This document shows positions 7,740-58,200 of a stretch of 64,000 nt of DNA, piece after piece. The translations under genes were made by a program, and so were the position numbers. The notes below the pieces were generated by a model that had not been told where the DNA came from, did not search any database, and saw nothing but the letters and a program-made list of their open reading frames with translations. Within the stretch, counting starts at the first letter, position 1. Each line of letters starts with the position of its first letter. The DNA comes from Chitinophaga sp. GTDB lineage: Bacteria > Bacteroidota > Bacteroidia > Chitinophagales > Chitinophagaceae. The stretch spans positions 62,001 to 126,000 of the forward strand of contig NZ_JAFAIX010000012.1 of the NCBI RefSeq assembly GCF_019236475.1, read 5' to 3'.

Positions 7740-7821
7740 GCGGATGTGGTGAAATTGGTAGACACGCCAGACTTAGGATCTGGTGCCGCGAGGCATGGGG
7801 GTTCGAGTCCCTTCATCCGCA
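7740..7821 (+). tRNA. tRNA-Leu (anticodon TAG)
   Basis: GCGGATG...CATCCGC acceptor stem, anticodon loop CTTAGGA within CCAGA..TCTGG, variable arm, GGTTCGAGTCC T-arm. Confidence 0.95.
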
Positions 7822-27080: not shown

Positions 27081-28130
27081 ATGAGCAAAGTTATTAAGAC
27101 AGGCATTTGTTCCTTTGGCATGTCCGGACAGATCTTCCATGCACCGTTCATTCATGTACATCCAAACTTCGAATTCACTGCTGTAGTGGAAAGAAGCAAA
27201 CACCTAGCGGCAGCAAAATATCCAGGCGTTAAAGTTTACGCCAGTGTAGACGATATGGTTAAAGATCCTTCATTAGATCTGATTGTGGTGAATACGCCCA
27301 ATTATACCCACTACGACTATGCTAAAACAGCCCTTGATGCTGGTAAACATGTGATTGTTGAAAAACCTTTCACTGTACATAACCAAGAAGCACAGGAACT
27401 GATTGAACTAGCCGCCTCCAAAGGATTACTATTAAGCGTTTACCATAACCGTCGCTTTGATAGTGATTATAAAGTGGTGAAAAAAGTGATTGAATCTGGC
27501 GTATTGGGCGATGTACTTGAATTTGAAGTGCATTACGATCGCTTTAAAGAGGAACTGAGCTACAAGAAACATAAGGAAGGAAACCTACCTGGAACTGGCG
27601 CACTGTACGATCTTGGCTCCCATTTGATAGATCAGGCACTGACTATATTTGGTATGCCGAGAAAGTTATGGGCAGACATACGTATTATTCGCAAGGATTC
27701 TCTTGTAGATGACTATTTTGAACTGGTGCTGTATTACGATTTTCTGCGGGTAAGGCTGAAGTCAAGCTACCTGGTAAGAGAAGCGCTGCCTGCCTATCAA
27801 GTACATGGCCGTATCGGCTCCTTTATCAAATCGAAATCTGATATCCAGGAAGCACAGTTGCAACGCGGCCTAATGCCGAATAGTCCGGATTGGGGAGCAG
27901 AAGCGCCACACGAATGGGGTTTACTCCATACTACCATCAATGATAAAACAGTGAAAGAGTTTGTACCAGGCGGAAATGGGAATTACATGGATTACTACAA
28001 CGGCATCTATGAAGCCCTGGCCAATGGCGCTCCAAACCCAGTTGCACCACAGGATGGCGCCAATGTAGTTAAGATTATTGAAGCTGCTTTTGAAAGTAGC
28101 AATTCCGGTAAAGTAGTTCCAGTAATATAA
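27081..28130 (+). CDS. Gfo/Idh/MocA family oxidoreductase
   Basis: VVNTPNYTHYDYAKTALDAGKHVIVEKPFTVHNQEAQELIELA; LYDLGSHLIDQAL. Confidence 0.93.
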   Translation: MSKVIKTGICSFGMSGQIFHAPFIHVHPNFEFTAVVERSKHLAAAKYPGVKVYASVDDMVKDPSLDLIVVNTPNYTHYDYAKTALDAGKHVIVEKPFTVHNQEAQELIELAASKGLLLSVYHNRRFDSDYKVVKKVIESGVLGDVLEFEVHYDRFKEELSYKKHKEGNLPGTGALYDLGSHLIDQALTIFGMPRKLWADIRIIRKDSLVDDYFELVLYYDFLRVRLKSSYLVREALPAYQVHGRIGSFIKSKSDIQEAQLQRGLMPNSPDWGAEAPHEWGLLHTTINDKTVKEFVPGGNGNYMDYYNGIYEALANGAPNPVAPQDGANVVKIIEAAFESSNSGKVVPVI

Positions 28131-28163
28131 CATACTAAAATAACTACATCTTCTTATTTTTTT

Positions 28164-28192
28164 GTTGCCCCTGCCCGCTGGGCAGGGGCAAC
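28164..28192. repeat. GC-rich intergenic hairpin (CCTGCC-cgctg-GGCAGG type), solo copy
   Basis: GTTGCCCCTGCC cgctg GGCAGGGGCAAC perfect 12-bp stem; same core as 39284-39310 and 55877-55909. Confidence 0.75.
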
Positions 28193-28216
28193 AGACATTT
28201 GGTACACCCTTTTATT

Positions 28217-34135: not shown

Positions 34136-34144
34136 CTAATATTA

Positions 34145-34182
34145 TAAAAAAATCCCCGGTCGCAACGACCGGGGATTTTTTT
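34145..34182. terminator. Bidirectional terminator between convergent ald and uppP
   Basis: AAAAAATCCCCGGTCG caa CGACCGGGGATTTTTT. Confidence 0.85.
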
Positions 34183-34981
34183 ATATCTCTAATTTGTATC
34201 CCATCAACAGGGCTACAATGATTATCAACCCTACTACTATTCTGTAATAGCCCCAGATCTTGAAGCCGTGTTTCTTCAATGAATCGATAAAGAACTTAAT
34301 AGCCAGCATAGCCACTACGAATGCTACTATATTCCCTACCAACAGCAGTTTCAAGTTCTCAGGATGTGCCATCAGCAATTCTCTTCCTTTCAGCAGTTTA
34401 TAACCAGTAGCAGCCGCCATAGTAGGTACTGCTAGGAAGAAGGAGAATTCAGCAGCAACGTTCCTAGTCAGCTTCTGCTGCATACCACCAATAATGGAGG
34501 CCGCGCTACGGCTAACACCTGGAATCATTGCAAGACATTGGTAAAAACCGATGCGCAATGCCTTAAATATGTTAATCTTTTCGTCTGAATCAATGGTTGG
34601 ATTTTGGAACCATTTATCCACAAACAAGAGGATAATACCTCCAAGGAAGAGCGTAATACCAACCGTCATTGGGCTTTCCAGCAGCATATCAATTTTATCT
34701 GCGAACAGGTAACCGAGAATCAGTGCAGGAATCACCGCTACGATCAGTTTCAGGTAGAAATTCATCCTGTTCTTGTCGAACACAAAGAATTTTTTCCAAT
34801 ACAGCACTACTACCGCGAGGATGGCGCCGAGCTGGATAACCACCTCAAACAGTTTGGTAAACTCGTCCTTGCTGATACCCAGCAAGGAGCTTACGATAAT
34901 CATGTGACCGGTGGAAGAAACAGGCAGAAATTCCGTCAAACCTTCTACTATCGCGATAATAATCGCTTGAAAAAAAGTCAT
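34181..34981 (-). CDS. uppP: Undecaprenyl-diphosphate phosphatase
   Basis: AIIIAIVEGLTEFLPVSSTGHMII, PGVSRSAASIIGGM. Confidence 0.95.
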   Translation of the reverse strand: MTFFQAIIIAIVEGLTEFLPVSSTGHMIIVSSLLGISKDEFTKLFEVVIQLGAILAVVVLYWKKFFVFDKNRMNFYLKLIVAVIPALILGYLFADKIDMLLESPMTVGITLFLGGIILLFVDKWFQNPTIDSDEKINIFKALRIGFYQCLAMIPGVSRSAASIIGGMQQKLTRNVAAEFSFFLAVPTMAAATGYKLLKGRELLMAHPENLKLLLVGNIVAFVVAMLAIKFFIDSLKKHGFKIWGYYRIVVGLIIIVALLMGYKLEI

Positions 34982-39266: not shown

Positions 39267-39280
39267 TAGTCATAACAAAA

Positions 39281-39360
39281 CTGTCGTCCCTGCCCGCTGG
39301 GCAGGGACGACGAAAAAGTTAAAAAGGGGAAGTGACTGCAACGTCACTTCCCCTTTTTGA
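39281..39360 (-). repeat. Composite two-hairpin intergenic repeat, inverted copy
   Basis: TCGTCCCTGCC cgctg GGCAGGGACGA (39284-39310), linker CGAAAAAGTT, AAAAAGGGGAAGTGAC tgcaac GTCACTTCCCCTTTTT (39321-39358). Confidence 0.8.
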
Positions 39361-39413
39361 TGCAACCACTTTTCTTTTGCATGCAATAAAAGCAGTATAT
39401 TTAATAGCCCATC

Positions 39414-44491: not shown

Positions 44492-44500
44492 GTATAACAA

Positions 44501-44579
44501 CAAGAGACTATATAAAACAAAAGAAGTGACGTCTGCGACGTCACTTCTTTTGTTTTATCTTTTTCGACAGGCAGGAGAG
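44501..44579 (+). repeat. Composite intergenic repeat, copy lacking the GC-rich second hairpin
   Basis: AGAGACTATAT leader, AAAACAAAAGAAGTGACGTC tgc GACGTCACTTCTTTTGTTTT (20-bp perfect stem), TATCTTTTTCG then ACAGGCAGGAGAG. Confidence 0.78.
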
Positions 44580-55811: not shown

Positions 55812-55913
55812 ACAGAAGAGACTGTATCAAAAACAGAAAGAGACGTCCGCGACGTCTCTTTCTGTTTTTATCTTTTTCGTCATTCCTGCCCTGCGGGCAG
55901 GAACGACAGGAGA
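55812..55913 (+). repeat. Composite two-hairpin intergenic repeat, full copy
   Basis: AGAAGAGACTGTATC leader, AAAAACAGAAAGAGACGTC cgc GACGTCTCTTTCTGTTTTT (19-bp perfect stem), ATCTTTTTCGTCA, TTCCTGCCC tgc GGGCAGGAA, CGACAGGAGAG. Confidence 0.82.
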
Positions 55914-55924
55914 GTTGTTGAAGA

Positions 55925-57502
55925 TTATGCAAATCTAGCTTTCAGTTCATTTGCCAGGGCAACCATTTTCTTCAGACCGTCTTCAGGCAGATTACCTTTT
56001 TTGAACTCGGTCAATACATCTGGCAGGCGAACTTCCATTTCGTTATGGAAAGCTTCTTCGAATGCTTTCACTTGTTTAACAGGAACTTCACGCAGCAGAC
56101 CGTTGGTACCCAGGTAGATGATAGCCACTTGTTTTTCCACTGGCAGTGGAGAGAACTGAGGCTGTTTCAGGATTTCCACGTTACGCTGACCTTTGTCGAT
56201 AACGGCTTTGGTAGCAGCATCGAGGTCACCACCGAATTTGGAGAAGGCTTCCATCTCACGATATTGTGCCTGGTCCAGTTTCAGGGTACCGGATACTTTC
56301 TTCATGGATTTGATCTGAGCGTTACCACCCACGCGGCTTACAGAGATACCTACGTTGATCGCAGGACGGATACCGGCGTTGAACAGGTTACCTTCCAGGA
56401 AGATCTGACCATCGGTGATGGAGATTACGTTGGTAGGGATATAAGCAGATACGTCAGAAGCTTGTGTTTCGATGATAGGCAATGCTGTCAGGGAACCACC
56501 ACCTTTAACCAGGTGTTTGATAGATTCTGGCAGGTCGTTCATCTGGCGAGCGATCTCATCTTTGTTGATGATTTTCGCAGCGCGCTCGAGCAAACGGCTA
56601 TGCAGGTAGAATACGTCACCTGGATAAGCTTCACGGCCTGGAGGACGTTTCAGCAGCAGGGACACCTCACGGTAAGCAACCGCCTGTTTAGACAGATCAT
56701 CATAAACGATCAGTGCAGGACGACCGCTATCACGGAAGAACTCACCAATTGCAGCACCAGCGAATGGAGCATAGAACTGCAGTGGAGCAGGATCAGAAGC
56801 GTTAGCAGCTACGATAGTAGTGTAAGCCATAGCGCCTGCTTCCTGTAAAGTTTTCATTACACCAGCAACGGTAGATGCTTTCTGACCGATTGCTACGTAA
56901 ATGCAATATACTGGTTTGCCAGCTTCGAAGAATTCTTTCTGGTTGATGATGGTATCGATACAGATAGCAGTTTTACCTGTCTGACGGTCACCGATCACCA
57001 ACTCACGTTGACCACGACCGATAGGAATCATAGCGTCGATCGCTTTAACACCTGTCTGCAGTGGTTCTTTTACTGGTTCACGGAACAGAACGCCTGGTGC
57101 TTTACGCTCCAGTGGCATTTCGTACAGTTCGCCAGTGATAGGGCCTTTACCATCGATTGGTTCACCCAATGTATTTACAACGCGACCAATCATACCTTCA
57201 CCTACGTTGATAGATGCGATCTGTTTAGTACGGCGTACTTTATCACCTTCTTTAATGCCTGTTGATTCACCCATCAATACCACACCTACGTTATCCTCTT
57301 CCAGGTTCAGTGCAATTGCTCTAACGCCATTGCTGAACTCAACCAGTTCACCGTAACCAACGTTACCCAAACCGTAAATGCGGGCGATACCATCACCCAC
57401 TTGCAGTACTGTACCTACCTCTTCCAGGCTGGCGTCAGCATTGAAGTTGCTTAACTGCTGGCGTAATATCGCCGAAATTTCATCAGGTTTAATACCAACC
57501 AT
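55925..57502 (-). CDS. atpA: ATP synthase F1 subunit alpha
   Basis: [75 protein letters not shown]. Confidence 0.98.
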
Positions 57503-57584
57503 AATTATGATTTTTAAAAAGAGTCGTTAGAGTAAATTAAAGTAACGACAACAGCTTTGCGTGTACGCAGCGGCTGCTGTATTT

Positions 57585-58142
57585 TTAACGTATCTCAGAT
57601 ACGTAAATATTCTTATTGAATTGTTGTTTCAGATTCTTCAGTTCATTTGCAACAGAAGCATCGTACAACTGATCCTGTGCTTCCAGCACGAAACCACCGA
57701 TCAGCTCAGGATTTACCTTAGCTTCCAGTTGAACTTGCTGGTTACCGTTAGCTACTTTCTGTTGGATCATGTCCAGTGTAGCTTGTTCCATAGGAACGGC
57801 GGTAGTAATTTTTACAGTTTTAATGTTTTTGATCACATTATACTGTTTGCCAAATTCCACGGCAATCTCAGGCAGGAAACTTTCGCGGCCTTTGGTCACC
57901 AGTAATTTGATGAACAACTGCGTGGTTAAATTCACACGGCTATTCAGAACGGCGTCGAGGATTTTCTGCTTAGCATCAGCCTTGATGATCGGGCTTTTGA
58001 GCAGCAGTACCACGTCGCGGTTTGATTTCATCACCTGTTGTAAAAACAGCATATCGGTATGCACTTCTTCCAGTTGATTCTTTTCGAGAACCAGGTCTAT
58101 CAATGATTTTGCATATCGGGATGCTAAACGGGGATTCTGCAT
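57585..58142 (-). CDS. atpH: ATP synthase F1 subunit delta
   Basis: NPRLASRYAKSLIDLVLEKNQLEEVHTDM; ELIGGFVLEAQDQLYDASVANELKNLKQQF. Confidence 0.93.
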   Translation of the reverse strand: MQNPRLASRYAKSLIDLVLEKNQLEEVHTDMLFLQQVMKSNRDVVLLLKSPIIKADAKQKILDAVLNSRVNLTTQLFIKLLVTKGRESFLPEIAVEFGKQYNVIKNIKTVKITTAVPMEQATLDMIQQKVANGNQQVQLEAKVNPELIGGFVLEAQDQLYDASVANELKNLKQQFNKNIYVSEIR

Positions 58143-58200
58143 ATTGCTTATCGCTTTAGCTTTTCACCAACTTGTTTAGAGCGGGTGTAGAGTCAGATTC

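Follow-up and report, generated by a model that had tools for sequence, protein, structure and literature searches.

What is the two-hairpin element that lies just downstream of atpA in the 64,000-nucleotide stretch of Chitinophaga sp. DNA analysed here (the window): one copy of a dispersed repeat, or one terminator among many unrelated ones? The preliminary description, made from the window alone, favoured a structured, mobile or dispersed REP/MITE-like family over independent terminators. Leader, hairpin 1, linker, hairpin 2 and tail were all located in the modular order it proposed, and the recurrences that it listed (39.3 kb inverted, 44.5 kb partial, 28.2 kb solo) were recovered, all four loci being matched by a covariance model (CM).

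55812-55913, + strand: full composite copy between atpA (stop side, atpA on the - strand) and a TonB-receptor-like gene; CM 94 bits, E=1.1e-23
55814-55828, + strand: leader AGAGACTGTATC; family consensus AGCTGTATCAAAA
55829-55869, no strand: hairpin 1, 19-bp perfect stem, loop CGC, apex GACGTC-CGC-GACGTC, A-tract/T-tract
55870-55878, + strand: linker ATCTTTTTCG / ATCTTTTTC, conserved among copies
55879-55907, no strand: hairpin 2, GC-rich CCTGCCC-TGC-GGGCAGG, outer stem compensated
55908-55924, + strand: tail AGGAGAGTT (after hairpin 2: ACAGGAGAG), shortened in this copy; consensus GGCAGGAGAGTTTTGCCTT
55925-57502, - strand: atpA, the host gene (Pfam ATP-synt_ab); AtpA is 99% identical in C. 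dinghuensis
39273-39375, - strand: second full copy, after leuS; CM 84.6 bits, E=4e-21
44498-44578, + strand: copy lacking hairpin 2, with ruvB and a response regulator gene converging on it; CM 64 bits, E=2e-15
28163-28193, + strand: solo hairpin 2 between convergent genes; CM 54.9 bits, E=7e-13 for the match at 28121-28202

A large dispersed family of composite repeats

The element is a real, large and lineage-specific dispersed repeat that is REP-like. A covariance model built from 17 copies recovered at least 150 copies from the Chitinophaga genome of 6.48 Mb, the weakest of the 150 scored matches having E=3e-11, which makes the family far larger than first noted; the matches were ranked by this structure model, and such a ranking might give copies with good pairing an advantage. 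Genome-wide, the hairpin-1 apex GACGTCNNNGACGTC was counted 89 times against 3 for its reversed control, and the hairpin-2 core CTGCCCNNNGGGCAG 112 times against none. Together with the covariance matches at E<=3e-11, these counts exclude chance. The own-genome statistics given below were derived from the 0.68 Mb around 140 of the at least 150 copies, which were extracted with their flanks.

The homologous unit spans about 120 bp, from the leader (AGCTGTATCAAAA) through hairpin 1, a T-rich linker and the GC-rich hairpin 2 to the tail (GGCAGGAGAGTTTTGCCTT), some copies ending in ..CATTT. In the family, hairpin 1 is long, A/T-flanked and topped by the apex GACGTC-TGC-GACGTC; hairpin 2 has a stem of 12.6 bp on average, a loop mostly of 3 nt and the tail ACAG. 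The leader is found with at most two mismatches in 53/140 copies (flank control, 0/140) and the tail with at most five in 36/140 (control, 0). The linker is conserved throughout the family, beyond the window loci at which its conservation was first seen. The proposal that the stems vary in a compensatory manner also held, with both-side changes in 20 of 25 pairs (316 cells vs 68 in shuffles). No pair of a third hairpin in the tail rose more than 0.07 above expectation. A few copies carry additional tandem hairpin-2/tail units; decayed units of this kind (ACAGGTACGAGCGTTTGTCTT-like) lie downstream of the element at C2:268965-269072 and C4:114803-114908 of the source genome (G000), which suggests local amplification.

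In the window, both the atpA and the leuS copies place hairpin 2 before hairpin 1 in the direction of transcription, so that hairpin 2 is the first part of the 55812-55913 copy to be transcribed from atpA. The single A-C mismatch of this hairpin 2 on the plus strand corresponds to a G-U pair once atpA is transcribed; in the atpA transcript the element has a predicted RNA fold of -55.1 kcal/mol (z=-8.1). No curated Rfam model matches the element; a tRNA gene at 7740-7821, the sole Rfam match of the window, is alone in reaching its gathering score. A search of one literature collection for work on Chitinophaga repeats found nothing.

Placement at gene ends and predicted termination

The copies are placed at the ends of genes. 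By simple ORF calls, the 140 copies divide into 77 with convergent neighbours, 55 with tandem neighbours, a single one with divergent neighbours and 7 that overlap ORF calls. Background intergenic regions of at least 100 bp in the same stretches comprise 81 convergent, 113 tandem and 44 divergent sites; these stretches were chosen for holding elements, which inflates their convergent share. Divergent sites are thus almost avoided (Fisher p=2e-8). Copies lie a median of 30 bp past the stop codon, and in tandem pairs, by the same ORF calls, hairpin 2 is transcribed ahead of hairpin 1 in 46 of 55 cases (46:9, p=4e-7), a strong orientation bias relative to the genes.

Hairpin 1 has the shape of an intrinsic terminator, a strong hairpin followed by a T-run shortly past a stop codon. 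In all 140 copies one flank of hairpin 1 holds a T-run of 4 or more, and in 90% the opposite flank holds an A-run of 4 or more; bordered in this way by an A-tract and a T-tract, hairpin 1 would terminate both ways. The atpA 3' site carries a plain intrinsic terminator in 29/29 other Chitinophaga species, at a median of 21 nt past the stop, and among the Chitinophaga species compared the composite occurs at atpA in this species only. Similarly, an ortholog alignment places a plain terminator hairpin at exactly the position of the leuS copy in C. dinghuensis. Post-stop placement, avoidance of divergent sites and the plain terminator at atpA in 29/29 species make it most likely that hairpin 1 is an intrinsic terminator working in both directions and that a dispersed REP-like repeat carries it. 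The opposition to "independent terminators" in the preliminary description was therefore a false choice: hairpin 1 is terminator-shaped in both directions, sits about 30 bp past stops and takes the position of the plain atpA terminator. The window also holds a good comparator for plain terminators, a 20-bp perfect, A/T-flanked hairpin at 34143-34185 (TATAAAAAAATCCCCGGTCG-CAA-...), where convergent ORFs end.

Could the copies be look-alike terminators that evolved independently by convergence? In favour of this, the stem of hairpin 1 is individual to each copy, as it would be in unrelated terminators. However, leader, linker, hairpin 2 and tail, all outside the terminator, are conserved among copies, and the apex and hairpin-2 core are at about chance level in other Chitinophaga. 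Conservation of the unpaired flanks refutes convergent origin, which we regard as hardly credible; given the same homology on both sides of the terminator, it is unlikely that the family dispersed through an RNA copy that stops at the U-run. A role as terminator does not by itself account for the conservation of the GACGTC apex.

If hairpin 1 is a terminator of this dispersed family, the mRNA of most tandem genes would close with the GC-rich hairpin 2, from which a short A-rich stretch leads to the long hairpin 1 and then a U-run. Transcription would stop at hairpin 1 in either direction, and hairpin 2 may have a role at the RNA level, perhaps that of shielding the 3' end from exonucleases. 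E. coli REPs have been proposed to act in this way.

Hypervariable, perfectly paired hairpin-1 stems

The hypervariable and perfectly paired stem of hairpin 1 is the oddest feature of the family and merits specialist attention. The 119 copies whose loop is 3 nt long have 115 different 18-nt arms. In 102 distinct aligned copies, each of the six inner variable pairs takes 3 or 4 Watson-Crick types, with 209 double-sided changes and, in 612 cells, no one-sided change, no G-U pair and no mismatched or unpaired position; such cells do occur in the conserved apex and in hairpin 2. A hairpin-search count over stem positions 7-15 gave 3 non-Watson-Crick cells in 1260. Plain terminators have 9 of 329 interior pairs non-Watson-Crick (p=8e-5 vs hairpin-1 stems), in a small sample of 39 hairpins, 29 of them from one locus.

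The stems also vary independently of the rest of the element (Mantel r=-0.02): copies with 84%-identical tails share stem identity of 0.51 vs 0.50 expected (p=0.39). When pairs were picked by the whole 3' half, stem identity was slightly higher (0.57-0.61 vs 0.50), and one pair, C5:84969 and C10:447535, is 89% identical across the element, stem included; these pairs indicate that stems are at least sometimes copied along with the element. At 12 sites with a GACGTC-type hairpin in both the source genome and C. dinghuensis, stem identity ranges from 0.22 to 1.0, with a mean of 0.58 vs 0.52 for random pairs (p=0.10). The stem of the ruvB copy in the window is the same in C. dinghuensis, identical over 20 bases of arm.

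The loops argue for template switching. With the element read in one orientation, hairpin-1 loops are TGC in 91 copies and GCA in 10, and of the 12 loops that share no position with TGC, 10 are its reverse complement GCA (p=3e-13). Hairpin-2 loops are GCT in 34 copies and AGC in 19. Where templates are switched between inverted repeats, homogenised arms and inverted spacers are the two known products (PMC8604942), and such switching would be the likeliest process behind both the stem pairing and the loop flips. Hairpin-1 stems would diversify in place after insertion, while the polymerase, by switching templates from one arm to the other, would hold the two arms the same and at times invert the loop. 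Quasipalindrome template-switch hotspots (PMC8604942, PMC7202029) likewise have identical arms and inverted spacers; they reflect a mutational process at scattered sites, whereas here the pattern runs across a whole repeat family.

Alternatively, the stems may be kept paired by RNA-level selection on terminator strength alone, through stepwise compensatory mutation with no correction of the arms at the DNA level. Plain terminators likewise have long, mostly paired stems, and a mismatch is costliest in mid-stem. Nevertheless, such selection tolerates G-U pairs, of which there are none in the 612 inner cells, while plain terminators have 9/329 non-Watson-Crick pairs, albeit in a small sample, and it would not predict loop inversions. 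We consider this explanation possible, if somewhat unlikely. A mobile terminator whose stem is actively rewritten, a conserved frame receiving a new perfect palindrome at or soon after insertion by fold-back or template-switch synthesis that outpaces change in the other parts, strikes us as a doubtful proposition.

The element might instead have inserted into the loops of resident terminators, each stem then being the old local terminator, which would account for unique stems decoupled from the frame. This is very improbable, because the ancestral atpA terminator stem of near relatives reads AAAAGGCYCTCCG vs AAAAACAGAAAGA here, leader and linker outside the stem are also conserved, and the stems match their local flanks no better than other flanks. 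The lack of any excess match to local flanks also tells against stems copied from neighbouring DNA. We consider it probable that the element as a whole is a non-coding repeat of about 120 bp, dispersed and specific to its lineage, which bears a predicted terminator, spread as DNA and has its stems diversified in place via template switching.

Distribution, putative mobility and related repeats

The family is largely restricted to this one species. The hairpin-2 core occurs 112 times here, 5 times in C. dinghuensis and at most 4 times in any other of 79 Chitinophaga genomes, and across 60 species the covariance model gave strong matches in the source genome and C. dinghuensis (G135) only. This sister species holds tens of related hairpins, with about a dozen full composites (the element is present in NZ_QLMA01000005.1, for instance) and many copies of hairpin 1 only; some of its hairpin 2 copies adjoin hairpins with other apices. 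A collection-wide GTDB pattern scan, from which the source genome was left out, returned C. dinghuensis and two other genomes (L235, L236), whose matches we took, on inspection, to be due to chance. In a genome of another genus (G085), 4 apex matches compare with 5 in the reversed control, no excess. A second composite, with the apex GGTCGAAACC-TGC-GGTTTCGACC or near it followed by a GC hairpin, was seen in C. dinghuensis (G135, L181 and the ortholog of G000 C2:231075), which may have a sister family of composites.

Comparison of 20 ortholog sites in C. dinghuensis, where flanks have about 85% nucleotide identity, gave by our own classification 8 GACGTC-type hairpins, 9 plain terminators, 1 different composite and 2 sites with neither. 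About half of the copies compared are thus absent from the sister species, usually with a plain terminator in their place. The older terminator still adjoins the element at two sites (C2:268965 and C2:474703), and a resident plain terminator may have been directly replaced by the element, or made redundant and then lost. The ends of the element are worn and the intergenic DNA of C. dinghuensis has diverged. Three further sites in this species drew our attention. The ortholog of G000 C3:139845-139948, on G135 C2, has an array of CGCAAAGGACGCAAAGAGGCAAAGG-type repeats in the composite's place. The ortholog of G000 C3:348628 has leader- and tail-like flanks (GAGACTACATATACTTAAAAA ... ATCAGGCAGGAGC) that enclose an unrelated terminator hairpin of 19 bp, as though one hairpin had taken the place of another within the frame. 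At the site of G000 C2:438187, G135 C3 has gained an ORF of about 1.4 kb at ~56550-58200 (a 1.5-kb gene gain), with a 23-bp perfect leader-like hairpin containing GGCTGTATCG at its edge; as a lead, this hairpin came to nothing.

From one genome per species, we infer that the element is mobile and disperses as DNA, because leader and tail flank the terminator on both sides and because the 89%-identical pair C5:84969/C10:447535 has a near-random right flank (identity 0.39; random, 0.36; the AT-rich left flank, 0.57). Copies would spread through an activity acting in trans and take over from resident terminators. The description as REP/MITE-like stood in part: at least 150 homologous copies make the family structured, dispersed and REP-like, and the terminal inverted repeats of a MITE were not seen, the left consensus AGAAGCTGTATC and the right consensus TTTTGCCTTCATTT not being inverted repeats by inspection. 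BrickBuilt of Porphyromonas gingivalis (PMC4596501) is a MITE from the same phylum, Bacteroidota, and similarly a non-coding intergenic repeat with leader and tail; unlike such MITEs, the element lacks terminal inverted repeats, has far more copies and carries a terminator hairpin.

A RAYT-mobilised, GTAG-tagged REP family, or an IS200/IS605-derived miniature with left- and right-end hairpins, would fit the two hairpins, the 3'-end placement and the REP-like copy number, and RAYT-associated REPs and BIMEs are likewise dispersed extragenic palindromes with a 3'-end bias and a composite layout. Yet the suggested RAYT-like partner did not emerge: the Y1 transposase family PF01797 had no match above the Pfam cut-off in either carrier genome (best E 0.06 in the source genome, 0.04 in C. 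dinghuensis), while positive-control genomes matched. A GTAG tag is missing from the consensus around either hairpin, and a search for an IS with the leader as its terminal repeat was negative, the 22 leader matches being mostly copies of the element. Mobilisation of this type seems to us quite improbable.

The DUS/USS terminators of Neisseria and Pasteurellaceae (PMC1852404) raise another comparison, as they too hold a species-specific sequence within many intrinsic terminators, and an uptake-signal-like motif might here have been paired into terminators. In this family, however, the motif makes up only the apex, the second hairpin and the flanks are conserved too, and beyond the elements there is no excess of GACGTC, TTGACGTC or CTGCCC (GACGTC, 32 observed vs 30 expected in 659 kb). 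Having no such excess, these motifs refute the uptake-signal reading, to which we give next to no weight.

The nearest named group is that of the CGTC-tagged REPs (CGTC-1 to CGTC-4, including Neisseria dRS3 and Rickettsia RPE-4/6), which are short GC-rich palindromes of high copy number near gene 3' ends and are also without a known enzyme (PMC3733652). Like them, the family here has no dedicated transposase and a convergent or unidirectional 3'-end placement, and hairpin 2 of the 55.9-kb copy reads CGTCATTCC, as in a CGTC-REP. However, the CGTC tag (CGTC or TGTC/CCTC) is unpaired in those REPs, whereas here CGTC stands ahead of hairpin 2 and usually pairs with GACG on its far side; their stem of 8-9 bp, loop of 4-5 nt and CCA-like tail contrast with a stem of 12-13 bp, a loop of 3 and the tail ACAG; and they have no obligate terminator hairpin alongside, as the element here does.

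RepRanger separates REPs from terminators explicitly by the T-run (PMC12306157), and because surveys make this split, a family that is both would be overlooked: repeat surveys that use it would miss a REP and a terminator joined in one dispersed family. The roughly 140 palindromes of this one genome also form a natural data set on how the arms of bacterial inverted repeats stay identical amid sequence change. If confirmed, our reading would mean that, in one lineage, a repeat family takes over termination at a sizeable number of gene ends while sister species retain the older terminators.
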